Origin: Histomonas meleagridis | Lineage: Eukaryota > Parabasalia > Tritrichomonadida > Dientamoebidae | Reading direction: 5' to 3' | NCBI GenBank assembly: GCA_020186115.1 | Contig: WSYJ01000130.1 | Coordinates: 62,001 to 126,000 of the forward strand | DNA length: 64,000 bases | Shown here: positions 2,638 to 54,468 of the stretch, piece by piece | Layout of the letters: each line of letters starts with the position of its first letter | Position numbering within the stretch: the stretch's first letter is position 1 | Made by a program: the position numbers and the translations under genes | The notes under the pieces: model-generated | Databases searched by the model: none | What the model saw: only the letters and a program-made list of their open reading frames with translations | Told to the model about the DNA's origin: nothing

Positions 2638-2668
<31 letters not shown>

Positions 2669-6766: not shown

Positions 6767-6769
6767 CAA

Positions 6770-8652: not shown

Positions 8653-8694
<42 letters not shown>

Positions 8695-14555: not shown

Positions 14556-14573
14556 TTAATTTTTAATGGATTA

Positions 14574-14579
14574 ATGTGA
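14574..14579 (-). promoter_or_regulatory. Initiator-like TCACAT of ANK2 (left)
   Basis: TCACAT on the minus strand fits TCA-Y-W-W and would give a ~22 base leader before the ATG at 14555. Confidence 0.45.
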
Positions 14580-14658
14580 CACTTTGTGATTCAAATTAAA
14601 GATCTTAAACATTTGCGCTTACTTGGTGTATTAATGAGGTAAGCCAACTACCAAATGT

Positions 14659-26937: not shown

Positions 26938-27120
26938 TTTTTATGTATGTTAACGTATATTAAATATTGCGGCCGATAGATTGTGGCGGCGGTTTTGTCT
27001 TTATTATATCAGATAAAAATTTTGTGGCGCAAACATAGAATGTAAAATTTTTATTACTTTATTCAAAAATACCACCGACTGCCTCAACTTTAAAATACAA
27101 TTTTAAGTATTTCATTACCA

Positions 27121-29301: not shown

Positions 29302-31952
29302 ATGAAAATGCTTATACAAAAAGTACCAATGGAAGGTATTGAATTATCGGAATGGTTTATAATGCAAGATTGCACAAAAACAACAAAAACTTTCAAAATA
29401 GAAAATAAAAATTCGAAAAACCAAAGTATTTCTATGGAAACACTTGTTTCACTTGAAAGAAAAATATTTAACTTAAGTAAAGAAAATCTTGCTACAGTAG
29501 TTGAACTAACAATGGAATTATTTGACATGAATTTTCCATATTCATATAATTTATTGATTTGTAATTTGGTTTACTTTGCATTTTATTCACAAAGAAATAT
29601 AAGTGATCTTTATTTGAGTTACTTAGAAACAATTCAAACAAAAGAAAAGAAATTAATCAAAACATCACTCCAATTATTAATGTTTTTTGTGATAATATAA
29701 AAAAATTAATTCACAAGAATCAAATTATTTAATTGAGAAATGATTGAACATAATTTAGTAAAGTGCAAACATTACCAACGATATTAAATCCAAATATTTT
29801 ACACACTTTAAAACAGAAAAAGAAAATATTCAAAAATATTATTATGATCCATTTAGCGATGCTTTTTAATAAATTACAAAAAACTTTTAATGAATGATTG
29901 GGAACTTCACAAGAAATTAATTTAAAGAAAGGGAGTTAATCCAAATGAAATTGTAAAAATAATCCGAAACGATGAAATCGAAAAACTTCAAGAAATATCA
30001 TCACAAAATAATTTTAATTTTGATCATAGCAATTCAGCCATCACTTTATGAAAGATGTTCATTTACATTAATCAAAAAAATGTTTCACTTGTTGATTATG
30101 CAGCATTTTTTCTGCTGTTAGATGTTTTAAGCATTTGTTGCTAAATGGTGCAAACAGTAAATAACACAGGCAAATATGCAATTGCTGGTGGGAATTTAGA
30201 AATCATTCATTTATAGTGAACAGAATCATTCATCATTTGAAGATGCATATCAAACAGCAATCCAATTTCATAAAAACGATATATTTCATTATATTTATGA
30301 AAATAAATTAGAACAATTAAATGATAAATTGGGATATTATTGTGTTCAAAGCGGAAATTATGAAATTCTTTTATTTTTAGAGCAAGAATGCATAAAAATT
30401 AATGATGACATATTATATAAAATAGCAAAACTTGATAACTTATATATTTTCCAATATTTTCTGCTAAAAAATCAAATTCCAAAAGATATAATGATCTATT
30501 GTTCAGTATCAAATAATATTGAACTTGTGAAATTTATTCTTGAACAAAAAGGAATTAGATACTAAATGCTAAATATGTTAATTTGTTTAATATAATATTC
30601 GTTTTAATATATTATGACTTTAAAATATTTGGAATTTATTTAGAATATTTAAAACAGCTCTTTCTTTTGCATCTGAAACGGGTAATGTTGAGATAGTTAA
30701 ATTACTTCTTAAACAAAATGAAATTGATATTAATACTAAAGGATTTTTTTAGTTTTATATAATATTTATTTAAACGTTTCATCGAAATATAAAATTAAAA
30801 TTTGAAAATTATTTAACATATCCAAAACACCACTTATGCTTGCATCAAAACAAGGTCATACAGATGTAGTTAAATTACTTCTTGAAAAAGAAGAAATTGA
30901 AATAAATACTCAAAATATTCATTGTTTATATATAAAATTTTCTTTAATCATTTTATGTTTCAAAATAAAATATAAAAATTATTAAATATATTTGAAACAG
31001 CACTTATGAATGCATTTAGATGTGGTAACACTGAAATTATTAAATAAAAAAAAAAAAAAGAAGGAATTGAAATAAATACAAAAAATATTTATTTGTTTTG
31101 TTTGATGTTAATGCCATTAATATAGAATTTTAAGCATAAAATTGGAAATCATTTTAAATATTTGAAACAGCACTTATGCTAGCAGCTCAAAATAATTACT
31201 TAAAAATCGTTAAATTATTACTAGAACAAAAAGGAATTGATATTAATGCTAAAGATATTTTTTTATTTTACTTGATATTTATTTTAATAATTTCATATTT
31301 CAAAATAATATTTGGAAATTATTCAAAAAATTTTGTACAGCACTTATGAAAGCATTGAGTTATTATCACATAGAAATAGTTAAAATACTTCTTGAACAAA
31401 AAAGGAATTGATGTCAATGAAAAGAATGTTTATTTATTTTTGTTTAATGTCTATTATAATAAATTGATATTAAAAAATAATATTTGGGGATGATTTAAAT
31501 AATTTCAAACACCGCTTATGAAAGTATCTTTAAATGGATCAATAGAAATTGCTAAATTACTTCTTAAACAAGAAGGAATTGATGTTAATGCTCAAGATAT
31601 TTATATGTTTCTTTTAATTTTTATTTTAATACATTAAAATTTTTAAACAATATTCGGGAATTATTTCTATTGTTTAATACAGCACTTATTAATGCATCTT
31701 GTTTCGGCAATGCAGAAATAGTTAAATTACTTCTTGATCATGAAGGAATTGATATTAATGCTAAAAATATTTATTTTATTTGATATTTATTTTAATAATT
31801 TTATATTTCAAAATAATATTTGAAACTTATTTAAATTATTTCAAACAGCACTTTATGTAGCATCTATACAAGGAAATGCCAAAATAATTAAACTTTATAA
31901 TGAAAAAGTAAAACAAAACTATTGTCATGTCTTGGGAATAATTGATAATTAG
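29302..31952 (+). pseudogene. Ankyrin protein ANK3, right copy with many indels
   Basis: Same gene as 14659-17304. The first block is open only to ~29660, then broken repeatedly by single-base insertions, several in non-homopolymer sites (near 30025, 30149 and 30213). The cassettes themselves mostly stay open. One cassette has a run of 14 A (31046-31059) in place of codons present in the left arm. The last cassette ends KLYNEKVKQNYCHVLG then a short tail and stop at 31950-31952. Confidence 0.75.
31046..31059. other. A14 tract replacing 14 coding bases
   Basis: The left arm (15553-15566, reverse complement) reads TACTTCTTGAAAAA; here all fourteen are A, length unchanged. This removes the codons for LLLEK in one ankyrin cassette. 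Confidence 0.8.
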
Positions 31953-34900
31953 ACATTTGGTAGTTGGCTTACCTCATTAATACACCAAGTAAGCGCAAAT
32001 GTTTAAGATCTTTAATTTGAATCACAAAGTGTCACATTAATCCATTAAAAATTAAATGAAGAAGTTTCAAATAAACAGTTCATATTTTTTATTAATGGAA
32101 CATGATTCAAACTCTAAAAAAACAATAAACCCGATTAACGCAGATATAAGGTGTTTTGAGGACCTATGTAAGTTTTTTATTTCTCTCAAAAAAAATTATT
32201 TTACATGTAAATGAAGAAAACCTTGATTTTTCAGTTAAACAAACAATGGAGTTATTTGATGCAAGTTGTCCTTATTCATTTAATGTGATCATATGTAATT
32301 TTGTTTACAAGGTATTTTGCATAAAAAACAAATAATACATGTGATATATATGTAAAATATTTGAAATCAATTCAAACAGAAGAAGAAAAATTAAATAAAA
32401 GTTATCCCAAAATCATATCCATTTTTACTGAATATATAACTGGGAGGATATTTTCACAGGAAACTGATTATTTAATTGAGAAAATGATTGAACAAAATTT
32501 AATCAATGTTAAAGATGTTTATATTGGTTCCATGCTTTTACGTACTATAAAACACACAAAAGAACAAAAAAGAAAAGATCACTATGATCAGCTTGAATCA
32601 ACATTTTTGGATAATTATGAAGAACTTTCAAATAATAAATGGGCTCTCCATAAGCAATTAATTAATGAAGGACATAATCCGAATGAAATTGCGAAAATAA
32701 TTCGAAATGATGAAATAGAAAAACTTCAAGAAATATCATCACAAACAAATTTTGATTTTAATCAAACAATTCCAAAATCACTTTATGAAAAATGTTCATT
32801 TATTAATCAAAATAATATTACATTAATTGATTATGCAGCATTTTTTCTGCTGTTAAATGTTTTAAATATTTACTTATGAATGATGCAAAAAATAGATAAT
32901 TCAGGTAAATATGCAGTTGCAGGTGGAAATGAAGAAATCATTCATTTATGTGAACAAAAATCATTCATCATTTCAAGGATCAATTAAAATAGCAATTAAG
33001 TATCATCAAAATAATATCTTTAAATATATTTATGAAAACAAATTAGAGAACTTGGATGATAATAAATCAAATTTAGGTGAATGTGTGCTCTATATTTTAA
33101 TTATAAAACACTTTTATATTTACAAAAAACGGGATTAGATATTGATAGCAAGAAAATTATTGTTAAATTAATAAAAACGGTAATATATATCATGTTAGAT
33201 TCCTATTAAAACAAAAAAGTAATTGATATTAAGCAAAAAATATGTTTATTTAAATGAATCAAGATTTGTTTTCATAATTTTGGATTGATTTTAATGGTTT
33301 AATATTTATTTTAATTACTTGATGTTAATTTTAATAATTTGATGTTTGTTTTATTAATATATAATTTATTTTAATAATTTGAGATTTATTTTAATAATTT
33401 TGTATTGTTTTTAATAGTTTAATATTTATTTTAATGACTTGATGTTAATTTTTTAATAATTTGATATTTATTTTTATTATTTTAATGTTTTGTTTTAATA
33501 ATTTCATATTTGTTTTAATAATATGTAATTTCTTTAAATAATTATATATTACTTTAAAAAAATTTATATTTCTTTTTATAATTTGGTACTGCATTTCACT
33601 TGGCTATTTCCTACCGTAATATAGAAATGTTAAAAATACTATTGAAACAAAAAGGAATCAACATCAATGAAAGATATATTTGTTTTAGTAATCTTACTAT
33701 TTATTTTAATAACTTTGGATCTATTTTAATATTTTTAGTATTTCTTTTTATTGATTTGATATTAGTTTATACAATTTTGGATATGCTTTATTCGTTTGAA
33801 ATTTATTATAATAATTTAATACTTACTTTAATAATTTTATATTTATTTTAATGGTTTTATATTTGTTTCAAAAATTTCATATTTATTTTAATAACTTTAT
33901 AATTGCTTTAATTGTTTGAAATTTATTTTAATAATTTGATATATTTTTTTATTATTTGGAACAGCACTTCATTTAGCAATCAAGTATATAGATATTGACT
34001 CAGTTATAAATAATAATATAGAAATAGTAAAATTACTCTTGAAACAAGAAGGAATTGATGTTAATGCAAAATATATTTAATGAAAAAATTTTCTGTGCGT
34101 TTTAACTATTTGAAATGTGTTTCAACAATTTGAAATTCATTTTAATAAAATGATATTTGTTTTAATAGTTTGAAATTTATGTTGAAAATTTATAGTTTCT
34201 TTAGTTAATTTCGTATTTGTTTTAATAATGTGATGTTTGTTTTGACATATTGAAGTTTATCCTAATATTTTTATATTTCTTTAAGAAATTTTATATTTCT
34301 TTCAATAGTTTGAAGTATTTTTTAATCATTTGGAAAAGTTCTTCATTTAGCAATCAGGAATAATGATATTGACTCAGTCAAATTACTTCTTGAACAAGAA
34401 GGAATTAATATAAATGCTAAAGATATTCATTTCGAATATTTTTTATTTATTTTAACAATTTTATATTTTATAAAAATGTTTGGATATTGTTTTAAATCAT
34501 TAACACACCACTTATGTTAGCAATTAAAGAAAATGTTATATCAATTGTGGAATTACTTCTTGAACAAGAAGGAATCGATATTAATGCCAAAGATAAAATT
34601 TATTTTAATAATTTAATATTTCAAAATAATGCATGAAAATTATTTGAATTATTGGAAACAGCATTTATGAAAGCATCTGAAAATGGTTACACAGAAATAG
34701 TTAAATTACTTCTTGAACAAGAAGATATTGATATTAATGCAAAAATATATATTTGTTTTATTTAGAATTTATTTTAATAATTTTATATTTCAAAATAATA
34801 TTTAGAATTTATTTAAAATATTTGAAACAGCATTTATGAAAGCATCTGAAAATGGTTACACAGAAATAGTTAAATTACTTCTTGAACAAGAAGATATTGA

Positions 34901-34969
34901 TATTAATGCAAAAATATATATTTATTTTATTTAAATTTTATTTTAATAAAATTTTATTTCAAAATAATA

Positions 34970-35971
34970 TAGGGTGTCCGGTAGAAGTGTTAGCATCTCA
35001 ACATAGAAAGAGAATAAATAAAAACAAAAAATATTATTTTTTTCTTTAGTGAATGTATTCACCTTTGGTATCAATAACTCTTTGTAATCTCTTTTCCCAG
35101 TTTAGAAAAGCACGGTTCAATTCATCATTCGAAATGTCATTGAATATTCGATGAACCTGATGTCTTAACTCTTCAGGGGTTTCAAATGAATAACCCTTGA
35201 GCTTTTCTTTGACATTATTCAAAAGACAAAAAATCTAATGGTGCTACGTCAGGTGAATATGGGGGATGTGTAGCTCTTTTCATCTGGTTCGAGTCAATAA
35301 AATTTGTGGTGATGCGAGCAGTATGCGGTTTTACATTGTCAACGTGCAAAATTAAATTTTTATCAGAACCATCATTGAATCTTTGAACAAGTTTAGATAA
35401 AATATTATTCACGTAGTAGTGTGCATTAAACTTTTGACCTTTAGGAACACAGTTAACGAGAGCAAAACCATTTGGATTGAAATATATTGACAACATAGAC
35501 CCGCACTTTTTTTTGCTCTGGTGTAAGAGAATGGGGTACCCAATGAAGGTGTCTGCAAACGAATTCAATTTTGATTAGGTGATCGTAAACAGTTGACCTT
35601 GGGATATTTGTTTTATGGGCTATTTGCCTGACTGAAAAAAAAGGGAATTCATCAAGCATATCCAAAATTTTTTCATCGGTGTTCGATGGTTCAGTGAAAT
35701 TGATTAATTCTTTAGACTCATTGCTATTTGTTCCAATTGTTCCTAATCTAATTGCTCTAGTAATACTTTGATATGGTTTACAGGAAGCACCTGAAGTCTC
35801 CTTCATATCATTATATATTTTAACAGCTGTCCATACTTTTAGGCTGAGATATCTTGCGACACTATCTTGGTCAATCATTTTTTGTGTGTTCAAAATGTGA
35901 CAGAAAATAAATTCCTCAATTTTTTTTGACGAAAAATCCAAAATATCCCAAATCGTTCGAAATATTAAATA

Positions 35972-36013
<42 letters not shown>

Positions 36014-36103
36014 TGTATGCAAAGTGCTCTATTATAATATAATAATATTAATTAAATTAATTGTCTATATATTAAGATGCTAACATTTCTACCGGACATC
36101 CTA
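34970..36103 (-). mobile_element. Mariner element, internally deleted (right)
   Basis: Same insertion as 10338-11638, with TA at 34968-34969 and 36104-36105 and the same terminal inverted repeats. It is 1134 bp long: a 176 bp internal stretch (left coordinates 10934-11109) is missing, partly offset by a longer TA microsatellite near its 5' end. Confidence 0.92.
35046..35941 (-). pseudogene. Mariner transposase, catalytic deletion (right)
   Basis: The N-terminal part is intact here (eight-T run keeps the frame through PFFSVRQIAHKTNIPRS). The deletion removes the TGDESW motif with the first catalytic Asp, and a T insertion disrupts the frame after VAPLDF. It cannot encode an active enzyme. The first codon of the long frame is TTG. 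Confidence 0.85.
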
Positions 36104-36186
36104 TATTTAGAATTTATTTAAAATATTTGAAACAGAACTCTAAATATTATCATACAGAAATTGTTAAATCACTTGAAATGCTCTAA

Positions 36187-37381
36187 TACTTATGTAAAAA
36201 CTTTTATAAGAGTGAAGTATTTTATATTGTAAATATTTTTAATATTTGAATTCGCCTGAGTTTCTTGAAACAAGACCATAAAATGGCGATAAAAGATTTT
36301 TCGAGAAAACAGTTTTTTGGTCATTTAATTTATGAATACAAAGACATACAAGGAATCGTAAAAACTTATGAACTACGCGTTGGCCATATGGTTTACCTTT
36401 AAATTACGAGAACACTACGTGGTTCTTCAACTGCATACATGTGGCAAGTTTAATCTTTTCGTATGTCATTCCAAGATCAATAATGTGTGTGCCTATTTTT
36501 TGTACGTGCAAAAGCATATTGTTTTCATACTAAATGAAATATTTGATGAACCAATGCACTAAGATTTTCTTGCATATATTTTGATTATATTTATAATACA
36601 TATGTTTTTTTTTATAAAACTTGAGACTTAAGTCCAAATTAAGCGCAAAGGATTATATTTTTAAGACACTATTTTGTTTCATTAATACATATTATGAGTG
36701 TTTTTCAAAATATAGGATCAATTAAGTAATTCTGGATAAAGATAAATTTACTTCTTTAGTTTGCATACAACTAATTAGTTGTATGAAATAATACACTTCA
36801 CTTTATCAATGTAATTTAAGAAAATATTTTGTATTCGCTATTTCATTCAGATTTGGTACTCTAAATGATAAATGAATATTGCTCATATATATACCGATAA
36901 GTTATGCTATTCAATTTATTGCTTTTTCTTTTTATACATTTTTTATGAGGAATTGTATATTCAGGGCATAACGGTCGTCATAAACGGTCGCATCCGTGGG
37001 AAAAACCCCGCCGAAAATTGGAAAACCCTGCCAATAATATTATCCCCGCCAAAATTGATATCATAAAACAATTATTTTAATATCTTATATCATATACAGA
37101 TAATCTTAAATTACAATGGATTCGTAATCGCGCTATTACTTATCAGAATTTAGAGATAGGATATGTTTCGCTTATGGGTGCATTTTTATAATTAACTCTG
37201 ATTAACAATAAGGATAAAACACTTTACAACATTAATTATATCAATACAACAATGTTTTATGTATGTTTAATCATAAATATAGAACAAAATTCAACAAATT
37301 AATTATGATATCTTACCAATAATATACATTGACATTTTTTATATATAGATTCGAATCGCTTCATGAAAATGGGCAAATATT
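36187..37381. other. Intergenic, mirror of 9066-10254
   Basis: Contains the palindrome (about 36765-36787) and the CCCGCC-type block at ~37003-37050. No supported gene. Confidence 0.4.
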
Positions 37382-37675
37382 TTAAATTGATTCATTTTTT
37401 ATCGTTGTCTTTAAATCATTAAATTCAGTGATGTTTCTTCCTTTCGAGTTATTTAAAAAGTTAATGAAATTGGTTGGTGTCTCATAGCAATCGTCATTTT
37501 TGGGCGATGGATTTGTAAGTCCCAAACCATCTAATTCGTGATTTATTTCATCTGAAATGCTCAATAAAGCATAAGAAGAATCAAAATGGTTATCATTTGA
37601 AGTTTCTTCTGAAGGGATGCTCACGATGCTGTTGTTCATTTCTAAGTATTCGACAAATGCTTCCATGAGATACAT
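37382..37675 (-). CDS. Small unknown protein, 97 aa (intact copy)
   Basis: Starts at ATG 37675 (MYLMEAFVEYLEMNNS), acidic and Ser/Asn-rich, no transmembrane segment or recognisable motif. An overlapping upstream frame beginning MFINLNEEVTIHPN also looks protein-like over ~43 codons, so the true gene could be a frameshifted fusion of the two. The left-arm counterpart has a nonsense change. It lies between the mariner and the Tc1-like element, so it may belong to an older mobile element. Confidence 0.4.
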   Translation of the reverse strand: MYLMEAFVEYLEMNNSIVSIPSEETSNDNHFDSSYALLSISDEINHELDGLGLTNPSPKNDDCYETPTNFINFLNNSKGRNITEFNDLKTTIKNESI

Positions 37676-37752
37676 TATTAATGTTTGGGTGGATGGTTAC
37701 TTCTTCATTTAAATTAATAAACATCTTTTAATATTATTACATAATAACGTTG

Positions 37753-37756
<4 letters not shown>

Positions 37757-37826
<70 letters not shown>
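37757..37826. repeat. TA microsatellite
   Basis: About 70 bases of TA, against ~36 in the left arm. Confidence 0.9.
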
Positions 37827-37828
<2 letters not shown>

Positions 37829-38323
37829 TCACCACTCAAAACGTGAATAGCATATAAGGTTAATATAATGTGCTAAGAATAAATATACAAATTAAATAAG
37901 GAATATAGAAATAAGATTTATCATCTATCATGTAGATATTGAAATTTGATTTTTTTATATAATAGAACATTATACGAATTTCTAATGTATTGTACGTACA
38001 CTCCTACGTAGTATTTATAATATATATAATAGTAATAATATATATAATAGTAATAATATGTAGAATAGTAATAATATATATAATAGTAATAATATATATA
38101 ATAGTAATAATATATTATTAATAATCTTGATATTCACATAAATCATACCAGAAACTTATAAAAAATTCATTTAATTTATTAAATCACTGATGAAAAATAT
38201 AATTTACACCATAATTTATTTATTATTTGATATTCTTCACACAATATAATAGTAGTTTGTTATTGTTCACACTACTATTTCGTAAAATAAAATGAAATAA
38301 AATCAGAAATGTAGATTTTGATA

Positions 38324-39130
38324 AACTGATGTTCAAAAATGGAGACTATGGGTAAAAAAGGGTAAATCTAACATATTCATAGATTTATTCAATTGACATT
38401 AAAAAAATGGGAAATCCTCAAATCCTTGATGCAGGTGCAAATGTTTTAGTTAATAGCGAAAAATCAGATAAAGGGAAATCATAAATCCTTAAGAAAATTT
38501 AATTCCAATTCTGCAGGATATATGGAAAAACATAGGTAAGGAAATCATTAACAGACTTGTAAATGATTTTATTCGTCGATGTAAATTGGTAATTGACGTT
38601 GGTGGTGAAAGTATCAGTCAATATATTTCAAGCCATCGAAATGCTGTCAGAGATAAAGATAAAGTTGACACAGCTAACATGAGATTTTGGAAGAAGGATC
38701 AAGACGAAACTATATAAAAAAGGCACCGAGAATTTGACAATCAATGGAAAAAAATTGGATCAGAGATCAATAGAAGTGGAACAGAAACTAAAAACAGGTA
38801 TCATTTTTCTGCACAGGTCGAAGCGAATGATCATCTTGATTCCCATATATAGTTTCCTCCAATCGATGAAAATTTAATCATGGATCCGATCTTCAAAAAT
38901 TGGCAACCAACATGGACATTGTAACAGAGGCCTATGATTTAGATATTTGTATGATTGATGTTGTATTTTAGCCCGATTTGCTGAAAAAGAATGACCATTG
39001 TTCAAAAACGGAGACTATTTTTGAATGGTTTACAAAATCATTCCAATATATGAGCCCGTTACTTCCTTTTGAATTTACATAGAAAAAGTGACTTTATTAC
39101 AAAAGTAGTCTCCATTTTTGAACATCAGTT
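38324..39130. mobile_element. Tc1/mariner-type element, 807 bp (right)
   Basis: Mirror copy of 7349-8153, with the same perfect 25-base terminal repeats and TA duplications (38322-38323, 39131-39132). The transposase C-terminal relic lies on the plus strand at about 38500-38640, followed by a broken stretch with HREFDNQWKKIGSEI that could be a fragment of another Myb-like frame. Confidence 0.8.
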
Positions 39131-39713
39131 TATTTGCTTATGTGATAATTATATGATTTTTTTATTTTGCTATTTAAGTTCACTAAAACCAATATGATGA
39201 TATTATATCTTATACCTAATTACATATAATTAATCTTTCAATTTATTAATATATACATTAATATATATACATTTATTGATGAATAACTATAATAAAATTT
39301 TTTGAATATACAAAAATGATTTATGTAATTGAATTTTTGTATTCAATTTTGATCAATGCAAAACGACAATTATCGTATTCAATTTTTTGATTTAATTTTA
39401 TATGTCACAAAACGGCACTTATTTTATTCAATTTTATTAATTTAATTTCACTTGGCGTAAAGAGTCACTAATCGAAAAAAAAATTAAAAATTTGAAAGCA
39501 TAAACTATACAATAATTCAATGGAAATTACCGTTATGCCTTGGAAATAGGATTATACCATTTTTTATATTCTGGATAACGGTCGTTATAAATTTTTTTTA
39601 AGTGTATATATAGAAAAAGTGATCACAAATTTTCTGAAGGGATATATCTATCGTACACTAATCATAAAAGTGACGCTGATGTAAACCAAATTCAGGTGAT
39701 TTGAATTAATTTG

Positions 39714-39719
39714 TCACTT
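39714..39719 (+). promoter_or_regulatory. Initiator-like TCACTT of ANK1 (right)
   Basis: Same element and spacing as in the left arm. Confidence 0.5.
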
Positions 39720-39758
39720 TTTATCTGCTGCCAAAAAGAATTTGAAATTATTTTATTG

Positions 39759-41612
39759 ATGGAACTCTCGAAATCATTAGAATCAATTGTCTTTAATCTC
39801 AACGAAAAAAATTTCGAAACATCAGTTCAAGCAACAATTAATTTATTTGTAGATAGGCTGCCATATACATTTAACTATCTTGTTTCCAGACTTATCTATT
39901 CAGCTTTTGTTTCACAATCAAATAATGAAAATATATATATTAAATATTTATTAACGTTGAAAGAAAAAGAAGATGAAAAAGATAAAAACAAAAGTAAAAC
40001 TGAAGCTAATCTTGTCCAAATCTTTTGTAAATATTTTAATGGGAATAGAAAAACAAGAATCATATTTCCTTCTTGAAAAGATGATCGAAGAAGAAATAAT
40101 TGAACCATCTTCAGTAAAGAACATGAACACATTATATTTTTCTCAATATAATACAAAGGAAGAAATAAATGATTTGAAGAACAAATTTCCAAAACCACAA
40201 TTCCTTGAAGAATTTATTTCAGCACTTGATGAATTATCAAAAGATGACTGGAAACTTCATATGCAATATGTAAAAGAAGGAGTTAATCCATTAGAAATTG
40301 CGAAAGTACTTCGAAATGATGATTTAGAAAAGCTTCAAGAAATATCATCACATAATGAATTTGACTTTAATCAAATAATTAAGCCATCACTTTATGAAAG
40401 ATGTTCGTTTGTTAATACTGAAAATGTTTCATTAATTGATTATTGTGCATTTTTTGGCTCCATTAAATGTTTTAAATATATATTATTAAATAATTCTAAT
40501 ATTAAAAACACATTAAAATATGCAATTGCAGGTGGAAACTTAGAAATTATTCATTTATGTGAACAAAACAATTCATCATTTACAGAAGCATATGAAACAG
40601 CGATAGGATTTCATCGAAATAAAATTTTTCGTTACCTTTATGAAAATAAAATTGGAAAAATTTCTAATGACAGAAAAAATTTATTTTCAATGTTTTCTTT
40701 CCAAAATCGAATTCCAATATCGAAAGTCAAGATAATTGTAATTTAAGTGAAGAAAATTTAATATATCTTGGAAAAAAATGTATAGAATTTAATAATTATG
40801 AAATCTTCATGTTTTTAGAAAAAGAAGGAATGAAAATGAATAATGAAATTATAGAAGAAATAGCATCAAAAGGAAATACATTCATAATAGAAAGTGATAT
40901 ACGAAGTCAACAAATTCCAAATACAATTTTACCATATTCAGTTAAATCAGGAAATATAGAAATAGTAAAATTACTTTTAGATAAAGAAGGAATTGATGTT
41001 AATGCAAAAACTATTTATTTGAATAATTTGGAATATGTTTTAATAATTTTGGATATGTTTTAATAATTTGAAACAGCTCTTCATATAGCAGTTAGAAATA
41101 ATAATATAGAAATAGTAAAATTACTTTTAGAGAAAGGAATTGATGTTAATGCAAAATATATTCATTTGAATAATTTAGAATATGTTTTAATAATTTGAAA
41201 TATGTTTTAATCATTGGAAACAGCACTTCATATAGCAGTTAGAAATAATAATATAGAAATAGTAAAATTACTTTTAGATAAAGAAGGAATTGATGTTAAT
41301 GCAAAATATATTCATTTGAATAATTTAGAATATGTTTTAATAATTCGGAATATGTTTTAATAATTTGGAATATGTTTTAATCATTTGAAACAGCTCTTCA
41401 TATAGCAGTTAGAAAATAATATAGAAATAGTAAAATTACTTTTAGATAAAGAAGGAATTGATGTTAATGCAAAATATATTCATTTGAATAATTTAGAATA
41501 TGTTTTAATAATTCGGAATATGTTTTAATAATTTGAAACAGCTATTGAAATTGCTAAACGGTTGGGTTTCGGAGAATTAAAACAAATACTTCGTGAAAGA
41601 GGTGTCATTTAA
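39759..41612 (+). pseudogene. Ankyrin protein ANK1, right copy (two frameshifts)
   Basis: Lacks the left arm's 149 bp deletion, so it retains the full first block, but the frame shifts near 40040 (between FCKYF and MGIEKQESYFLLEKM) and near 40696 (one T fewer than the left arm). Cassettes follow at about 41071-41157, 41220-41310 and 41390-41480, with spacers of 63, 63, 83 and 63 bases (multiples of a 20 base unit plus 3). The last cassette is TAIEIAKRLGFGELKQILRE, then RGVI-stop at 41610-41612, a typical ankyrin C-terminus. Confidence 0.78.
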
Positions 41613-42339
41613 TTTAGACTATGGTAAGTGTTCTACTAATTTTTTGATAAATCCCACGATTAAACATAATATTTAAAAAATGAACACTTTCATAAAGTAA
41701 CGGTTTAATTGCTTGACTTAAGGGTCGCTTCGCGCTGGCCATTTTTTTCCTATATCATGTCAAACGGCGAACTCCCTCAAATGCTAAAATGATTCTTTTT
41801 TTTATTTTTATTTTTATTTTATTAATTTTTTTTTCTTTTTTCTTTTTTTCTTCTTTCTTATCTTGCTTTTTTTCTTTCCTAATTTTTTATATTCCCCTAT
41901 TTCTTTTACATAAATATTTTTTTTGTTAAATTTTATAATTATAATTTAATAATAGTTCATAAATTAGATATTTTGAATATTTTATGATTTCCTTAAAAAT
42001 CATTCCTCTTTTCTAATAATACAAATCAGAAGTATTCTAATTATTACAGTTTAATAATTATCTCTTTCTATATATTATCTCTCACAGAACTTAACAAAAT
42101 TAAAAGCATAGTACCAATTTTTAATAAATAATACATTTTATGTAGCACAACTATTATGTTCCCAGCTCTTCCTCTCTGTTCAACCATAAGGAAAGTGCTT
42201 TCAAAAAATCAATTCTTTCATGACCAATAAAACAAAATCTGCAGCTATTTAATATAAACAACTCGAAAAACTAATTTTAGATTTATTGATTACTTTCATG
42301 AAATTTTTATTCAAATTACCATTTGAAATAACAGCTGAG
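41613..42339. other. Intergenic, mirror of 4276-5025
   Basis: Pyrimidine-rich tract at about 41790-41885 and the ankyrin-core fragment at ~41690-41720. No gene. Confidence 0.4.
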
Positions 42340-43090
42340 TTTTTCCTTGACTGGAAATCAGTTGCAATGTTCTTGCTTCCAATAACTTTTTTCACCATTT
42401 GATATAATTCTAATTTTTGTATATCCGCATCGAAATGTTATTTGCTCAGTTTCCGATATCTTAAAGTATGTTTTAATCTCTTCAGTATTTGGAGAGTAAA
42501 TAACAACGAAATGATCAAAGATACCAACAGGACTTAAATTAGGACCTATAAGTAAAAGTAAAAGTTCATCCTAAAGCGGAATTTCGCGGTGATATGTTTG
42601 GAATTAAATATTGCGCTTGTGATTCAAATTCACAAAATGACAATATTCAACCCATATGAAAGAATTTAGCATGTCATGAAACATTAATGGACTTCTCTCT
42701 AATTATTTCTTTGCGTGTTTGTTCAAGTGAATAGGCTGAACTTTCAATCAGATTTACAACTTGTTTTTTGTTTTTGCCCTTGATACCTTTGTTGTTAGGT
42801 AGGGCTGTTTCTTCGGGCGCTGGAGTCTTTTTAAGTTGTGAATTGAAAGATGGCAAGTTTACTATTGTAGATATTGTTCAAACGAAACTTTAACCATCTT
42901 TAACAATTTGCCCTCATGCGTTAGTTAAAGCACTTCTTATGTCACGACGTAAATGTCGTTTTTCATCTTCAGATCGATGAATTATTCACTTAACACTTTC
43001 ATAAACGGCCTCCAAGTAGCTGCTATAAAAGTGACAACGATAGAAACGGGGTGCACCGTTAACTTTGTGAATGAAAAGAAAGAAATCAAT
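42340..43090 (-). pseudogene. Decayed unknown reading frame (right copy)
   Basis: Mirror of 3541-4275. The 60-codon open piece is at 42674-42856. TGA codons at the same positions persist, so they predate the arm duplication or are shared by both sequences. Confidence 0.4.
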
Positions 43091-43387
43091 TGAGAAAAGT
43101 CATCATCAATGTTATTACCAGAATGAATGAATTTGATACCTATATAATTTTTCTTAATGAAATTGAAATATTAGAAAACAATAAAAAAAAAAATATTCAG
43201 ATATTTTTGATAAATTTTCCAATTTTCTTATGAACAAAAGCACACAAGAATCATAAGGTTTATTAAAACATTTCCAAATTCCAATTATTTAATATTCAAA
43301 TTAAAATATGAACTCAACAAAGTGATGGATATAACAAGAAACTCAAAAAATTATTTTTATTATTAATATTATAATATAAGACGAATA

Positions 43388-43967
43388 TTATTCTGTGATT
43401 GTTGTTGTGTTTGCCCAATCAGGGAATTCATTAGCATTAAAAATAGGAGGGATTAAAATAATTGAAGCTCCAATAACGACGAACAAACTAATGATATTAA
43501 TAATTGAACCATATATTAAGAAGTCTTTCATTTTTAATTTGCCGGAACCGTAACAAATTAAATTTGGAGGAGTTGCGACAGGCATTATGAAACAACACGA
43601 AGTTGCGAAAGCTGTTGGAATCATTAAAAGATAAGGATGAAATTTTTTACCATTTTTAGCTAAATTAGCTACAATTGGTAAAAATATATTTGCACATGCA
43701 GTATTTGATGCGATATTCGATAAAATTGAAGCCACGAAACAAATACAAATTAATAAAACAAATAAAGATAAATCCGTTAAAGAACGTAATTGATTTCCAA
43801 GCCATTCACCAAGTAAAGAATCAGTAAAACCTTGATTTAAAGCAAAACCTCCAGAAAACATAAAAATGATTGTCCAAGGAATTTTTTGTTGAACATATTC
43901 CCATTCAAGAATTGGAATCCATTCTTTATTATCATTATTAATAATTTCATCTTCATTTTGATTTTCT

Positions 43968-43998
<31 letters not shown>

Positions 43999-45184
43999 CA
44001 TCATCAAATTCTGATATTTCTTCAATTAATTCTTGATCTTCTGAATTATATTCATTTTCTTCTAATATTTCTTGTTTAATCTTTTTATTTTCTTGTGTTA
44101 TTTGTTCTAATGATAAATTAACTTCAGATTCTTTAAGTTTTTCTTCTTGTTTTTGAGAAATTTGTGGAACTTTAATAATAAATAATAATATCGATATACA
44201 AATAGCTATAGTTCCATCATTAATATTTTGCGAACCATTTGAACCTAATATTAAAGTCGTCCAACCTTTAATAGTAAAAGAACCGAAATTTAAATCACAT
44301 CGAAATAACCATAAAATTGCTAATAATATAAATAATAAACCAATAATAATTTCAGCAGGTTTCATTTTCCCTAATTTTTGATAATTATCTTTAAAACAAC
44401 TTTCATCTACATTTTCATTAATTTTTAATTTCCTCATAAATATAAAAGCAAATATTAAATAAATTATAATTAATATGATGATTGATGTTGGTAAAGCTAA
44501 AAATAAAAATTGAGCAAATCCAATTCCAGGTGATTCAGGAAATATATTCGTAACTGTTTGTGAACAAATTAAATTTGGTGGCGTCCCAATTAAAGTCGCC
44601 ATCCCTCCAATAGAAGAAGAAAATGCAATCGTTAAAAATAATGTTTTCGAAAATGGTTCAATTAATTTTGAATCTCCTGTAATTTCTTCTAATTTAGTAA
44701 CAATAGCTAACGCATTTGGAACCATAGTTAAAGCTGTCGCCGTATTTGATATCCACATAGATAAAAAAAGATGTAACTATCATAATACCTAATAATAAAA
44801 TTCTTGGTTTTAAACCAAAAAATTAAGACTGTTTTTCTTGATATCCTTGCATGTAAATGCCATTTAGCCATCGCAATTGCGGAGATAAAACAAAAAAAAA
44901 ATACTAAAGAAGTATCAGAAAACATTGAAGATGCAATATTTGAAGCTGAAGAAAGTTCCCAAACATTGGGATTAAAAAATATTGGGAAGAATGCTGTAAT
45001 TACAATAGGAATAGGTTCTAATATCCAATATAAAGCAGTAATAATCGTAATTCCCAAACATCTTGAAAGTATTTGAGTTTGCTTTATCTAACACAATGAA
45101 ATTAAATATGAAAGGGAAAGCAATGATAATAGGCAAAAGAAATTTCACCCACCAGATAATACTTTTTTTGGTTTCTGGTTTCAT
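43388..45184 (-). pseudogene. SLC13/DASS anion transporter, broken 5' third (right copy)
   Basis: From about 44758 to the stop at 43388 the frame is open for 456 codons and contains both SNT motifs, both TPPNL motifs and the acidic Asn-rich loop. The first third (45184-44760) has several shifts: an extra T after NSNT, changes around the ILEPIPIV segment, and loss of frame after TVLIF. Bases 44892-44901 are A10 where the left arm has CTCCTAAAAA (reverse complement of 1737-1746), and nearby residues differ (WHLHARIS against WNLHSRIS), showing real substitutions too. Confidence 0.85.
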
Positions 45185-45753
45185 CTTTTTATTTGTTGAT
45201 AAATTTTTTTTTGAAATACCAAAAATGTCCGACCTAACCTACTCAAAATAATTCTCTCAAATTTGAACGTAAACAATTTTCACAATTCATTTTAACCGTT
45301 CACTTTGCTTAAAAACTTCAATATTTTTAAAGACATTCCGGTGGTTTTCATCGTTTTTCGCTGCTTCATCAAAATGACAGAAGAGAAAAACAACAACAAC
45401 AACAAAAAATCAAAATCATATGAATCAAAGAAATTATAAATTTTCTTATTTTTATTGATTTCTTCAATCATTGGAAAAATCTTTCATTTCTTCATTTCAT
45501 CTTTCTTAAAATTTGTAAAATGTTGATTTAATTTTATAAAATAACTCATTTTTCAAAATCAAAAATAATTGTCAAACTCAATCATTTCATGATAAAATAT
45601 TTCTTAAATTTTTAAAAAAATGTAATCATAATAAAACCAATTTTTTGTTTTTATTAACAGATAATTTTATTCCTAAAAACCCGTTACTTTGAATGAAAAA
45701 CGAATTAACTGAAAAAGAATAAGAAAAAAGAAATATTATAATATAACATATAA

Positions 45754-46453
45754 ATGCGAAGAAATTGGGATGAAAAAGAAGATAAAATTTTAAAAGATTT
45801 GATTCAAATTCATGGGAAACAATGGAATTTAATTTCTCAACATCTTAAAACTCGAACACCTTCACAAATCGCAGCACGTTGGGAAAAATGTTTAAATCCG
45901 ATGATTATTAAAGGACCTTTTACGAAAGAAGAAGATGAAATTATAAAAAATTATGTAAACAAAAAATGGGCCACGAAGTTGGCCTCAAATTACATCACTG
46001 TTACCAAATCGAAGTTCGAAACAATGTCGTGAACGTTGGTTAAATCATTTAGATCCAAATGTTATTAAAAGTCCTTGGACACAAGAAGAAGATAATTTCA
46101 TCTTTGAACAATATAAAAAGTTTGGAAGTAAATGGTCAAATATTGCCAAATTATTACCTGGACGAACTGATAATGCAATTAAAAACAGATGGAATTCTTC
46201 AATATCAAAAAGAATTTCGATTAATATTAATGGAAATGAAATTATTTTACCAGATAAAACAAAACGTAATTACAAAAATAAAAATAATAATAATAATAAA
46301 ACAAATGAAAATTTAAATTTAAATATGATTTCATTTAAACCTTTTGCACTTCAAAATAATTTAAAATCAAATCCCGCAATGGAAAAACCAACAATTATAT
46401 TAAATATAAATTCTCCAAATAATATTTCATCACAACAAACAGAAACAAAATAA
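45754..46453 (+). pseudogene. Three-repeat Myb protein, frameshifted (right copy)
   Basis: Identical start and repeats to 193-891, but A6 instead of A5 at about 45960-45967 shifts the frame in the second Myb repeat. The rest of the gene, to the stop at 46451-46453, is preserved in the shifted frame. Confidence 0.88.
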
Positions 46454-46599
46454 CTTTTACTTGATAATCAAATTCATTATTTTAAATTGTTTAATTCTTT
46501 ATTTGTTCTTTTTATTAGTTAAATACCAAAAAATGTTTTTGATAAAAATATTAAGTTGGACTTAAATAATTTAAAATTTCAAATGCAGAAACAAATTGC

Positions 46600-48296: not shown

Positions 48297-49827
48297 TTAA
48301 TTTTTATCAAGTTTCTTTTTAATTAAATCAATTATTTCTGTGTGGCCTTTCTCTGATGCATAGGTAAGTGCTGTTTTAAATAACATAAATAATTTGCGAG
48401 TATTGTTTTGAATTTCTAAAATATTAAAATAAAATTTAAATAAAACAAATAAATATTTTTAGCATTAATATCAATTCCTTCTTGTTCAAGAAGCAATTTA
48501 ACTATTTCTGTATAACCTTTTTCAGCTGCTATCATAAGTGCTGTTTGAAATAATTTAAATAATTTCCAAATATTATTTTGAAATAAAAATTTAATTTTTA
48601 AATAAACTTGAAGTAAAATAAATAAATATCATTAGCATTAATATCAATTCCTTTTTGATCTAAAATATATTTAACAAGTTCAATATTTTGAACCTTTAGT
48701 GAAAATAATAAAATATTTTTCGGAATTGGATTTTCTTTAAGAAAATATTTAACAAGATAAAGATTTCCAAGTTCTGCTGCTTTATTAATAATATATTCAT
48801 TAATTTTTAATCCGTTATCTAATAAAAACGCAAAAATTTCAAAATTCCAAACACAAATGCATATCAATGCCAAATCCTCTAATCGATCCATTTCCACGAT
48901 ATTATTATCATGAAGATAATGAAAGATCTCATTTCGATGGAGTAACACTGCTGTTTCATATGCATAATCAAATGATGCATGATTTTGTACACATAAATGA
49001 ATTATTTCTAAGTTTCCACCTGCAACCGAATATTTACCTATGTTTTCTAATTTTGCATTATTCATAAGTAAATATTTAAAACATTTAACTGCAGAAAAAA
49101 ATGCTGCATAATCAATTAATGAAACATCTTCTAGATTAACAAAAAAACATCTTTCATAAATTGATGGTTCAATCTTTTGATTAAAATCAAAATTTGCTTG
49201 TGATGATATTTCTTGAAGTTTTTCGATTTCATCATTACGAATTATTTTAGCAATTTCACTTGGGTTATGCCCTTCTTTAATATATTGTTTATGAAGTTCC
49301 CAATCATTCTTCGAAAGTGCTTCATAGTTATTAAATATTTGTTGAAAATCACATTTGTTCTTTTGCTTTTCAATTTCTTCTTTGGTCATATAATGTACAA
49401 AAAAAGGATTTGAACTGTTTTCCAATATTTTTGGATCAAGAATATTTCTTTCAATCATTTTTAGAAAAAGATAATTTGAATCTTGGGTTTCATTACGAAA
49501 AAATTCATAAAAAACTTCAGAAATTTTTGGTTTGATCTTTTTAGTTTCTTGAAATGTATCAATTTCTTTCATAAAATCAAACCATATATCAAAATCATTA
49601 ATTGAAACACTGCTGTAAAAATAGATAAATTGAGTTATTACTTGGTTAAAAGAATATGGATAATTGTAATCAAACATGGCAATAATTGATTGTAATGATT
49701 GCGAAAAGTTATCTTTATTTAACCCAAATATAATGCGTTGAATTGATTCAATAAGTTCGAATTCATTTAGTTTTGGCTTTGTGTTTTCATTAGAATTGCT
49801 TGGGTTTGTTGTTACAGTAATTTCCAT
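48297..49827 (-). CDS. Ankyrin protein ANK5 with two extra cassettes
   Basis: Single-copy, with an intact first block. I choose ATG 49827 (MEITVTTNPSN) because TCACAT sits ten bases upstream; the open frame reaches 49878. The core motifs are present (SIYERCFFVNLEDVSLIDYA, AFFSAVKCFKYLLMNN, YSVAGGNLEIIHLCVQNH). The block ends in GIDINAN. An 86 nt spacer (stop at its 11th codon) leads to a full cassette TALMIAAEKGYTEIVKLLLE, then an 83 nt spacer leads to a last cassette TALTYASEKGHTEIIDLI with a KKKLDKN tail and stop at 48297-48299. As plain DNA the product would stop at 48598. Confidence 0.75.
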
Positions 49828-49930
49828 GAAAATGTGAAAGAACGTTAATTTCATACAAATTTTGTTGTGAAAACGCATTCACTTTTTAAATGCATATATG
49901 GACATTTGAAAATTTTTGCTGTTTTTTCCC
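49828..49930. promoter_or_regulatory. Compact divergent promoter of ANK5 / ANK6
   Basis: Only ~100 bases separate the two ATGs. Minus-strand TCACAT (49832-49837) fits the initiator for ANK5. For ANK6 the nearest plus-strand match is TCACTT at about 49879-49884. Confidence 0.5.
49832..49837 (-). promoter_or_regulatory. Initiator-like TCACAT of ANK5
   Basis: Fits TCA-Y-W-W; the +1 A would leave a leader of about eight bases before the ATG at 49827. Confidence 0.55.
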
Positions 49931-52449
49931 ATGGGAAGCAATCAAAGTTATGCAGCAACAAAATATAAAGGAAATTTTCAGGCACTTCAAGAGATTGAAC
50001 AAATAATTTCTAATGTAAATGATGAAAATATTAATCAATCTGTAGAATCTTCTTTATTTTATTATTCTAAAGAGTTTCCATTTTCATATAATTTTATTAT
50101 ATGTAGTATTTTATATTTATGTTTTGAATTAAAACATTGTAATAGATTATTCTTTGAGTATTTGAAAAAGCTTAAAACAAAGGAAATCGAAATATATAAC
50201 AATCCAAATATCATAAAAATTTTACCACAATTTTTAATTAATATAAAAACCCAAGAAGCATATTATCTTCTCAATGTAATGATTGAAAATAATATGACTG
50301 ATCCACAGATTGTTCAAACCCAGAAGAATCCATATTTTGCGCCATATATTATGTTAAATGAAAGATATATACGTTTTTTGTTTAATATGAATGGAATTAA
50401 TGATAATTATGAAGAACTTTCAAAAAATGATTGGGAACTTCATAAAAAACTGATTGAGGAAGGAGTAAATCCATTAAAAATTGCAAAAATAATTCGAAAG
50501 GATGAAATAGAAAAACTTCAAGAAATATCATCAGAAACAAACTTCGATTTTAATCAAACAATTCCAAAATCGCTTTATGAAAGCTGTTCATTTATTAATC
50601 ATAAAAATGTTACATTAATTGATTATGCAGCTTTTTTTGGATCAATTAAATGTTTTAAATATTTATTAATGAATGGTGCTAATATTAAATATACAGGCGA
50701 ATATGCTGTTGCAAGTGGAAACGAAGAAATCATTCATTTATGTGAACAAAATCATTCATCTTTTTATTATTCATATGATGCAGCGATTAGATTTCATAGA
50801 AATGATATATTTAAGTATCTTTATGAAAATAACATGGAAAAAATTCATAGTTTAGAAGAATTAGGAAAGAAATGTGTTTTATATCATAACTATGAAATTC
50901 TTTCATATTTAGAAAAAGAAGGAATGAAAATTAATGAATCACTTATCATTAAATCTATTGAGACAGGAAATATATTTATCTTACAATATTTCCTTGCAAA
51001 AAATCCACACACCATAAAGTTAACAGAAATTAAAACATTTTCTGGGAATAAAGAAATTTTTTACTTCCTTATTAATAATAAATGTATTGATTATACTCAT
51101 GTTTTTTAGTCATATTCAAAATTTGTTAAAACAATTTAATGATTTAAAAAAATATTCGAAATATATTAATAATTTTTCAAAATGCATTTTTAAATGCGTC
51201 TCGTTTAGGATACACTGAAATTGTGGAATTAATTCTTGAGCAAAATCGAATTGATGTCAATGTTAAAGATATTATTTTGTATTATTTAAATTCTTTTAAA
51301 ATAATTTTATAATAAATAATAATATATGGAAATTATTTTATATATTTTTTTCAGCACTTATTTTAGCATCATCAAGTAACTACACTGATATTGTTAAATT
51401 ACTTCTTAACCAAGAAAGAATTGATTTCAATGAAAAAGATATTTAATATTATTTTAAAAAAGTTTCTATTATTGATAAAATATTTTAAAATAATATTGGG
51501 AAATTATTTACAATTTTTAATACAGCACTTATATTTGAATCTTTACATGGTAATACTGAAATTGTTCAAATGCTTCTTAAAAAAGAAGGAATTGATTTTA
51601 ATGCCAAAAGAATTTTTTTGTTTCTTTTTGTATATAATTATTTCAATTAATATTACTCAATATTTTTTGGAAACTCTTCAAAGTATAATGGACACCACTT
51701 ATCATTGCATCTTTAAATGGGTACACTGATATTGTTAAGTTACTTCTTGAAAAAAAAGGGATTGATATCAATGCTAAAGATAATTGTTTAATACATTTGA
51801 AATATATTTTGATAAAATAATATCTCATAATAATATTTGGTAATTATTCAAGATATTTAATACGGCGCTCATCGAAGCATCTTTAAATGGACATTTTGAA
51901 ATTGTTAAAGCCCTTCTTGAACATAAAGAAGTTGATATCAATGCCAAAAAGATTTGTGTATTTTGTTTAACATTTATTTCAAAAATTTAATATTTTAAAT
52001 TAATATTTGGAAATTATTCAAATTATTTAATACAGCACTCATAAGTGCTTCTTTAAATGGACATATAAAAATAGTTAAAATGCTCCTTAAACATAAAGGA
52101 ATTGATATCAATGTAAAAAATTTTTGAACATTTTATTTAACATTTTTTTGAACAATTTAATAATTGAAAATATGATTTGGAAATTATTAAAAACTTTTAA
52201 TACTGCACTTATAACAGTTGCTCGAACAGGCCATCTTGAATTAGCAAAGTTACTTCTTGAGCAAAAAGGAATTGATATTAATGCAAAAGATGGTCATATA
52301 TTTGATTTAACATTAATTTATATAATTTTGGATTTCAAAATAATGTTTGGAAATCAATTAAATTATTCAAAACAGCAATTTCAAATGCAGAACAAAAGGG
52401 TCACAGTAAAATTGTTAAATTAATTCTTGAACATGAAGAAAATAAATAA
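49931..52449 (+). CDS. Ankyrin protein ANK6 with eight-unit cassette array
   Basis: Single-copy. The first ATG is 49931 (MGSNQSYAATK), which fits the N-myristoylation pattern MGxxxS. The first block runs to 51109 and contains the family core (SLYESCSFINHK, TLIDYAAFFGSIKCFKYLLM, YAVASGNEEIIHLCEQNHSS). Eight further ankyrin cassettes follow, ending TAISNAEQKGHSKIVKLILE, then HEENK-stop at 52447-52449. Spacers are about 80, 83, 84, 83, 83, 83, 83 and 83 nt. The cassettes differ in sequence (NGHFEIVKALLEHKEVDIN, TGHLELAKLLLEQKGIDIN) with synonymous changes such as ACA/ACT/ACG, indicating age and selection on the protein. Plain translation would stop at 51109. Confidence 0.75.
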
Positions 52450-53481: not shown

Positions 53482-54468
53482 TTATTTTTGAGGTATGTTT
53501 TGATCAAAAAATTCTTGCCATGACATATATTCATTTCCTTCATCATCTATTAAATAAGGTTTGCTTGTGTCTTCATTTACATTATTGTATACATTTTTTT
53601 CGTTTTGATATGATCCGAATGAAAAACAATTAATTTCAAGTGATTTAATAACTGAATCTTGAAGTTCTGCAACATCTGAGAAGAAAAGTTTATTTTTTGC
53701 TTCTTCTGGGCAATTTAAGAAATGACCAACTTTACGAAGTGCTGTTTTTGCAGGTCCAAACAATGCTAAAAATGCACAGAATTGTATGTAATCGATTTGT
53801 TTGTTTTTTTGTGGATCGAAAAAGAAAGTTAAAGTTTCATTTGCATTCGAAGTTGTTTGATTTGGTAACTTAAAAATTTCAACTGCTTTGTGGATAAACT
53901 TATTCGCGTCAACTGTTGATTCATATGGAAAATGTTTTTTCCATATTAAATATGATTTCTTCCAAAATTTTTGAGTTTCTTCATTTGATATTCCTCCAAT
54001 TTGAAATAACGGTTGTTCTTTCATTAACTCTAAATATTTAGTGAACTCGTATATTGCTATTTCTTTCTTTTCATCCATCATATTTGCAAAATCATTTACT
54101 TCATGTATTCCATTTAACCACGCATTCTTAACAACTTTATCTATTTCAATAATTGGATGCTTTTTCTTTTTTGGTCTTTTTGATTTTCTAATTTGTGATC
54201 TTTGACTTTTAGTATATTTAGATAATTCTTTTCTTTCTTCTAATTGTTTCTCATAAATTTTAGTGTTTCTTTCATTTATTTCAAGAAAGCTTTTTGTATT
54301 ATTATATTTTTTATCTCCTTCATCGTTATCTTCGAAATGAATATAATATGTTGTGTCTCTAATTTTTCTGATTTGAGCTTTCCAAAGATCTGTTTCATTC
54401 TCGTCTATAACATATATTTCTTCACCCTTTCTAAATTGATGTTTTTCGGGTTTAATACTTATAGACAT
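53482..54468 (-). CDS. Tudor/chromo-barrel-like plus EF-hand-like protein, 328 aa
   Basis: The N-terminal ~65 residues (FRKGEEIYVIDENETDLWKA ... YYIHFEDNDEG) have the pattern of a Tudor-knot or chromo-barrel, domains that bind modified histone tails or other peptides. A basic stretch (SKRPKKKKHP) could be a nuclear signal. Residues ~110-250 are helical with one degenerate EF-hand-like loop (FDPQKNKQIDYIQFCAFL). The C-terminal part ends YMSWQEFFDQNI. I cannot name the family; a chromatin-linked role is inference from the N-terminal domain and basic stretch. Confidence 0.65.
   Translation of the reverse strand: MSISIKPEKHQFRKGEEIYVIDENETDLWKAQIRKIRDTTYYIHFEDNDEGDKKYNNTKSFLEINERNTKIYEKQLEERKELSKYTKSQRSQIRKSKRPKKKKHPIIEIDKVVKNAWLNGIHEVNDFANMMDEKKEIAIYEFTKYLELMKEQPLFQIGGISNEETQKFWKKSYLIWKKHFPYESTVDANKFIHKAVEIFKLPNQTTSNANETLTFFFDPQKNKQIDYIQFCAFLALFGPAKTALRKVGHFLNCPEEAKNKLFFSDVAELQDSVIKSLEINCFSFGSYQNEKNVYNNVNEDTSKPYLIDDEGNEYMSWQEFFDQNIPQK

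Follow-up and report, generated by a model that had tools for sequence, protein, structure and literature searches.

In the poultry parasite Histomonas meleagridis, genes of the DUF3447/ankyrin type consist of an N-terminal open reading frame (ORF), a row of 29-codon ankyrin cassettes parted by related AT-rich spacers, and a terminal cassette that carries a stop of its own. We analysed these genes in a 64,000-nt stretch of contig WSYJ01000130.1 (positions 62,001 to 126,000 of the forward strand; hereafter the window, in whose coordinates positions are given) and in the whole assembly (43.28 Mb, 121 contigs). The near-absence of stops in the cassettes, together with the tolerance of stops in the spacers, indicates that the cassettes behave as translated exons and the spacers as removed sequence. 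On this pattern we consider it probable that the spacers are taken out of the RNA as noncanonical introns, and we infer that the exons are joined at the RNA level. The published genome of a virulent strain measures 43.4 Mb with a guanine-cytosine (GC) content of 28.66% (25.5% in the window), and its authors describe introns as scarce, at most one per gene (PMC8529796).

Coding constraint on the cassettes and abundance of the spacers

The analysed set comprised 331 spacers from the window and 37 loci, which were mostly picked for spacer presence and therefore do not form a random genome sample. A profile scan favours open frames, and the stop test was accordingly redone with exons found solely by the 27-nt spacer core preceding them, AATATTTGGAAATTATTTAAATTATTT; a 20-nt motif with 4 mismatches allowed proved too loose for this test (469 matches, with 385 frame-0 stops in the first 20 codons). 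The cassettes are under clear coding constraint. In 198 unique spacer-anchored exons, the cassette frame contained 7 stops among 3,762 codons (codons 0-18), whereas 120.3 were expected from the column composition; the other two frames carried 330 and 343 stops (328.5 and 310.3 expected, respectively). The great majority of these exons (183) were open through 31 codons, a further 11 had their stop at codons 19-30, the behaviour expected of terminal exons, and only 4 stopped earlier. Units found by the profile (n=226) gave a similar picture, with 3 stops among 6,328 codons where 69.6 were expected. A stop before codon 29 was present in 16 of the 39 last-detected cassettes but in only 8 of 329 internal ones. 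Thus, the first alternative of the sequence-only reading, gene-like cassettes with spacers that are somehow skipped, is supported, and the stop frequency far below the neutral rate extends to cassettes at other loci.

A neutral simulation, in which the substitution spectrum of the spacers was applied to the cassettes, predicted 101.9 stops (standard deviation 10.1, minimum 75 in 200 runs) where 3 were seen. Codon 7 was omitted from it, since the column consensus TAA at this codon had inflated the first version. The cassettes were therefore kept readable while the spacers diverged to ~ 0.30 substitutions per site. This result bears directly on the possibility that the arrays are decaying pseudogenes or a satellite-like, functionless spread, a reading that agrees with the large copy number and the recent duplications, and with the fact that the single public model checked (P0014, described below) leaves the downstream cassettes unannotated. 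The shortage of stops, both in the simulation and in the unfiltered, spacer-anchored set, makes such decay very unlikely.

In pairwise comparisons of the cassettes, the ratio of nonsynonymous to synonymous substitution (dN/dS) was 0.56 for the 20 codons classed as structural and 1.31 for the 9 classed as variable, indicating that the fold is kept and that the surface codons are fast-changing. The fast-changing codons are 4, 7, 8, 10 and 11 and the variable codon that directly follows the spacer (the x codon), as seen at the loci of contig C1 and at other loci. They resemble the positions varied in designed ankyrin libraries.

The main rival of the noncanonical-intron reading is a silent cassette store, in which the N-terminal ORF and the first cassette alone would be translated, the remaining cassettes serving as gene-conversion donors and the spacers providing homology. 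The contrast between variable and structural codons would suit such a store, as would the similarity of the spacers genome-wide, which is somewhat higher than that of synonymous sites (0.304 vs 0.405 substitutions per site). The public protein model P0014, named H. meleagridis and identical to the genome (100%) over 506 residues, can be read in the same way: its end lies 3 nt inside the first spacer, and downstream of it the genome has a further four cassettes at 83-nt gaps. The noncanonical-intron reading also accommodates this finding, the later exons being absent from the model. However, the near-total absence of stops in donors would demand very frequent conversion, and the tendency of last cassettes toward their own stop would be left unexplained. 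A spacer-free expression copy was not found: a search for the joined pattern with fixed codons, by which divergent joins would be missed, gave one strict match genome-wide, and this match is out of frame. The store, which the sequence-only reading had offered as an alternative, thus has no expression copy by this strict search yet stays a rival, although in our judgement an unlikely one.

The spacers are abundant. The 27-nt core occurs 3,855 times in the ~ 43.3 Mb genome at up to 2 mismatches, and a 33-nt type pattern, covering the spacer 3' end and the first codons of the next cassette, occurs 2,072 times; the reversed controls gave 0 in both cases. The core recovers 4 of the 36 window spacers, 91 of 153 at the C1 loci and 116 of 138 at the other loci; it therefore misses many divergent spacers, and 3,855 probably underestimates their total. 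Across the DNA retrieved, from loci chosen for the spacer, codons fitting x-T-A stood after 214 of 222 core matches, the remaining 8 being mostly diverged or shifted cassette starts, as judged by eye. No core matches were found in viral contigs.

Four arrays of the window (at 14.7-16.1, 11.7-12.3, 48.3-48.7 and 51.2-52.4 kb) contain 20 cassette-to-cassette spacers, of which 13 measure 83 nt, two each 80, 86 and 84 nt, and one 66 nt; other spacers in the window are 63, 63, 81, 82, 102 and 103 nt long. An earlier count gave 22 spacers (fifteen of 83 nt, three of 80, two of 86, one of 84 and one of 66); its two extra spacers, which were not reproduced, probably arose from the choice of duplication arm and from spacers ahead of first cassettes. 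The weight that this count gave to 3n+2 is not supported, and a functional rule of this kind does not hold; the 3n+2 lengths follow from a single modal length, 83 nt, shared by 244 of 331 spacers, and the other 87 are mixed (51 are 3n, 23 are 3n+2 and 13 are 3n+1). All three lengths modulo 3 are expected if the spacers are removed. The spacer consensus has an internal periodicity of ~ 20 nt, and the lengths 63, 83 and 103 nt are spaced by 20 (both by eye). In 66-nt spacers, the first 17 nt are mostly gone, and many of these, as well as some 86-nt spacers, carry an additional variable codon ahead of the spacer proper, which accounts for some of the length differences of three and is in keeping with the noncanonical-intron reading. 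The lengths of 84 and 82 nt, one base off the mode, often coincide with homopolymer runs, where sequencing errors may account for them.

Spacer borders and splice signals

Stops within the spacers allow the exon borders to be placed approximately. In 129 units, stop counts in the spacer were at or near the column expectation in all three frames, apart from a mild shortage in the downstream frame: 88 units had an upstream-frame stop by position 38, and 46 had a downstream-frame stop from position 17 on. Spacer stops, noted earlier from the window, are thus borne out in the frames of both neighbours. At the 3' end of the spacer, by contrast, the reading phase is fixed. The codon right after the conserved ...ATTATTT, i.e., the x codon, was never a stop in 220 unique 83-nt spacers (16.0 stops expected) and varies as a coding codon does (N, K, E, D, W, R, Y and others), while two to three codons deeper in the spacer stops were at or near expectation. 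On the 5' side, the second spacer codon carried 11 stops against 12.8 expected; the exon end therefore lies no more than ~ 6 bases from the spacer start.

Combining both borders, cuts that remove 71-80 nt leave 0-4 junction stops in the 220 units, and the listed 68-nt cuts leave 10-13 or more; the former range is close to the 74-83 nt proposed earlier. Equivalent cuts would place D-x, D-I-x or D-I-F-x as an indistinguishable linker ahead of T-A-L. If a cut takes the x codon as well, no junction stops arise either, but the stop-free state of this codon would then be unaccounted for. The simplest cut would take out 77 nt in phase 0, ATTTATTTG...AATTATTT, in many spacers with the ends ATTT...ATTT. 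Of the 220 units, 195 have GAT or AAT as the codon preceding the spacer, and 194 have TTT as the triplet directly ahead of the next exon. Conservation is highest at the spacer ends (0.957 and 0.945), followed by a core at positions 53-66 (0.916), with 0.84-0.90 elsewhere. Two other arrangements were disfavoured: a 34-residue repeat with a 68-nt intron, an idea taken from an intron-free junction in protein P0001, leaves at least 10 junction stops in 220 units for the listed cuts, and a 17-nt mini-intron, with the remaining 66 nt of the 83-nt type translated, has the downstream-frame stops in 46 of 129 units against it.

The same stops argue against translational bypassing or frameshifting, in which the ribosome would skip or shift at every spacer. 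In favour of such a mechanism, the modal 83-nt spacer would need one -1 shift, and its consensus is open in the downstream frame. Nevertheless, more than a third of the units (the 46 of 129) carry a stop in that frame, the 63- and 103-nt spacers call for other shifts, the take-off triplets (mostly GAT/AAT) do not match the pre-landing triplets (mostly TTT), and as many as a dozen skips would have to occur in one protein, all of which makes bypassing highly improbable.

Another question is whether the spacers could be introns of the ordinary kind. As positive controls, three canonical introns were located via the fused branch/3' motif; the pattern GTATGT...CTAACACACAG has three genomic occurrences (reversed control 0), and excision of these introns yields joined ORFs of 411, 391 and 500 amino acids, whereas the longest unspliced ORFs are 280, 206 and 304 amino acids long. 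At least one of the three genes reads as a protein kinase, as judged by eye without a family search. Two U2 candidates lie above the Rfam cut-off (80.5 and 79.3 bits), and one U6 candidate, with 43.7 bits, falls just under its cut-off of 44 bits; the U1 search gave no match, but its control gave none either, which makes it uninformative. The spacers do not fit canonical parabasalid spliceosomal introns, either in frame-keeping GT-AG ends or in a CTAAC branch site fused to the 3' splice site. Ordinary GT-AG introns with misplaced positions could still be imagined, given this working-looking intron type and the U2 and U6 candidates, and some frame-keeping GT-AG pair is available in 66 of 308 spacers. 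In the other 242, however, none is possible within -12 to +30 nt at the 5' end and -30 to +12 nt at the 3' end, and merely 9 of 308 contain a branch-like CTAAC, CTAAT or CTGAC. With the phase-0 cut, GT starts 10 and AG ends 2 of 282 spacers, and no spacer has both. Moreover, the codon before ACA is never a stop, so that the AG of ACAG is unfit as a 3' site. Misplaced GT-AG introns are therefore improbable in our opinion.

Searches for RNA signals gave a negative result as well. RNAalifold on 126 spacer units returned an empty consensus, with no structure, hairpin or covariation; pairing of at least 8 nt between the spacer ends was found in 27 of 282 spacers and in 20 of 282 shuffled ones, and pairing of the spacers with the U6 candidate was no better than in shuffles. 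The first and last 4 nt of the spacer are identical in 152 of 282 cases and are ATTT in 151, counts that come from AT-rich sequence and have no shuffled control. Such ATTT ends could be taken as a trace of programmed elimination, in which the spacers would be removed at the DNA level, and the site C86:303266-303295 indeed looks like a spacer deletion that left a single ATTT. The junction at this site is out of frame, though, and no such process is known from parabasalids; we regard DNA elimination as extremely unlikely.

Several results weigh against the removal of the spacers from RNA. The cassette dN/dS, a measure suggested by the sequence-only reading, reflects constraint at the structural codons but is just 0.79 overall, and it rises to 1.04-1.15 in pairs with close spacers. 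Downstream-frame stops in the spacers number 70 against 100.7 expected, although 12.6 of this expectation comes from the exonic codon, and the mirror stop test from the spacer 5' end (motif with 4 mismatches) is weak, with 17 stops against 29.2 expected. The 66 spacers with a possible GT-AG also count here, as does the fact that nothing found in the spacers (no GT-AG, no RNA structure, no end pairing) indicates a known route of splicing. In addition, the exon-joined form was not found in the protein searches, the last of which was assessed on the best 120 of 1,620 matches, and spacer-similarity tests for the proteins P0001, P0008 and P0016 were not significant.

Genes of the window and related proteins

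The forward-strand gene illustrates the complete arrangement. Its N-terminal ORF, or first exon (49916-51109), encodes DUF3447 (PF11929, 33.7 bits) and has its in-frame stop within the first spacer. The profile scan placed seven cassettes at 51184-51270, 51354-51440, 51525-51611, 51695-51781, 51865-51951, 52035-52121 and 52205-52291. They are followed by spacers at 51271-51353 (83 nt), 51441-51524 (84 nt), 51612-51694, 51782-51864, 51952-52034, 52122-52204 and 52292-52374 (83 nt each). The terminal cassette (52375-52449) has 24 codons and TAA (52447-52449), and the ATG of the next ORF lies 33 nt downstream of this stop. For the spacer at 51612-51694, the simplest cut would remove 51612-51688 and assign 51689-51694 to the next exon as its x-T codon pair, with the border uncertain by ~ 6 nt.

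On the reverse strand, a second DUF3447/ankyrin gene begins with an N-terminal ORF (48598-49878; identified by ORF, profile and Pfam) that includes the first cassette (48714-48628). It continues with an 86-nt spacer (48542-48627), a cassette (48455-48541), an 83-nt spacer (48372-48454) and a terminal cassette (48297-48371) with an in-frame TAA at 48299-48297. In both genes, the profile scan found the cassettes where they had been read from the sequence, and the two gene ends agree. A third gene of this kind (14678-17304, reverse strand; ORF, profile and Pfam) has its N-terminal ORF at 15916-17304 and spacers of 80, 86, 83, 83, 84, 83, 83 and 80 nt. PF11929 matches in the three N-terminal ORFs of the window scored 34.9, 33.7 and 35.0 bits (cut-off 26.9). 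A partial further array on the reverse strand (11693-12272, profile scan) has spacers of 83, 66 and 83 nt.

A gene of a second sub-family (5240-6769, reverse strand; ORF and profile) has spacers of 103 and 102 nt composed of ~ 20-nt tandem units. Spacers of this type (AATAATTTGGAATATGTTTT) occur at 5240-5702 and 40926-41477, and their length differs between the arms of a ~ 20 kb inverted duplication (69-19740 and 26877-46575, centre at ~ 23.3 kb). The longest pieces of the two arms are 98.3-98.5% identical. The largest piece contains more gap openings (67) than mismatches (39), an excess that may reflect a fold-back or a poorly polished assembly arm, and several ORFs of the left arm are present in the right arm as frameshifted copies. 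Each arm also has a mariner-like transposase ORF (10492-11562 and 35215-35941; assigned by eye, without a family search). Outside the duplication, an IBP39 domain was detected at 53482-54468 (PF11422, 94.8 bits); the initiator-binding protein IBP39 is known from trichomonads.

The first protein search yielded 35 proteins, most of them from ENA sources, three under the name H. meleagridis, with Tritrichomonas and Trichomonas among the remaining sources. Sequence similar to translated spacers is present in the tails of P0002, P0012 and P0015 (z = 10.0, 12.2 and 4.0 against shuffles), a finding in line with the noncanonical-intron reading, and P0001 has one junction without a spacer. About the same degree of difference as to these proteins is seen among H. 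meleagridis paralogues (44-53%). With the exon-joined query, no Histomonas-named protein was present among the best 120 of 1,620 matches.

Implications and comparison with known systems

Under the noncanonical-intron reading, the first exon would encode the DUF3447-type N-terminal domain, the middle exons one ankyrin repeat each, and the short terminal exon would supply the stop. The AT-rich spacers would be excised from the RNA as introns of ~ 71-80 nt without GT-AG and without the known branch/3' motif, the candidate machinery being either a separate pathway of cutting and ligation or a spliceosome whose recognition is relaxed or of a special kind. The readable pieces and the signal-less spacers of ~ 77 bases suggest a hidden intron class in an organism thought to be nearly intron-free. 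More tentatively, and with greater doubt, several thousand AT-rich introns of one family may be excised outside the GT-AG/branch rules, having multiplied with their exons as one-repeat modules in genes that can hold a dozen or more of them, thereby forming a modular ankyrin repertoire with fast-changing surface codons.

If this is true, thousands of introns belonging to a class so far unrecognised are present in an organism described as intron-poor, with one intron per gene as the maximum (PMC8529796), and its annotation lacks the downstream exons of a large gene family. The arrays would then also provide a simple, repetitive natural test bed for noncanonical intron recognition, an open issue in euglenozoans and Amoebophrya, and would show that repeat proteins can grow via duplication of a single exon-intron module. 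We found no description of these spacers in the open-licence literature on Histomonas introns or ankyrins, ankyrin introns, noncanonical introns and parabasalids, and no open-licence paper on DUF3447 in trichomonads.

Genes for repeat proteins with one repeat per exon and silent antigen cassettes likewise consist of modular units with variable surface codons; the spacers described here differ in that no splice signals of a known kind were recognised in them, and the strict joined-pattern search revealed no expression site. Trichomonas vaginalis and T. stableri are parabasalids like Histomonas, and their canonical type A introns (56-196 nt, besides type B) are similar in length to the spacers (PMC12316389). 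The spacers nevertheless have neither the GT nor the fused branch/3' motif ending in AG, and they number up to a dozen per gene, whereas the parabasalid genes have one canonical intron, at most two in T. stableri (PMC12316389).

Outside the parabasalids, two systems offer the nearest comparison. Euglenids and diplonemids belong to a different eukaryotic supergroup from Histomonas. Their nonconventional and noncanonical introns, respectively, also lack GT-AG, stand beside canonical introns in the same genome and have an unknown removal mechanism, and short direct repeats are reported to flank them, as ATTT does the spacers in 151 of 282 cases (PMC12621601). They differ in the strong pairing between their ends, which was not found in the spacers, and in their varied sequences, many host genes and RNA support, whereas the spacers are known from DNA as one related sequence at the borders between repeats in one gene family (PMC12621601). 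The introner elements and non-canonical introns of Amoebophrya resemble the spacers in being repeated, in belonging to a parasite and in having short direct repeats at their borders (PMC7789003). Introners, however, carry inverted repeats, which were not found here, and spread in the manner of mobile elements, while the spacers of H. meleagridis appear to have been multiplied together with their exons (PMC7789003).

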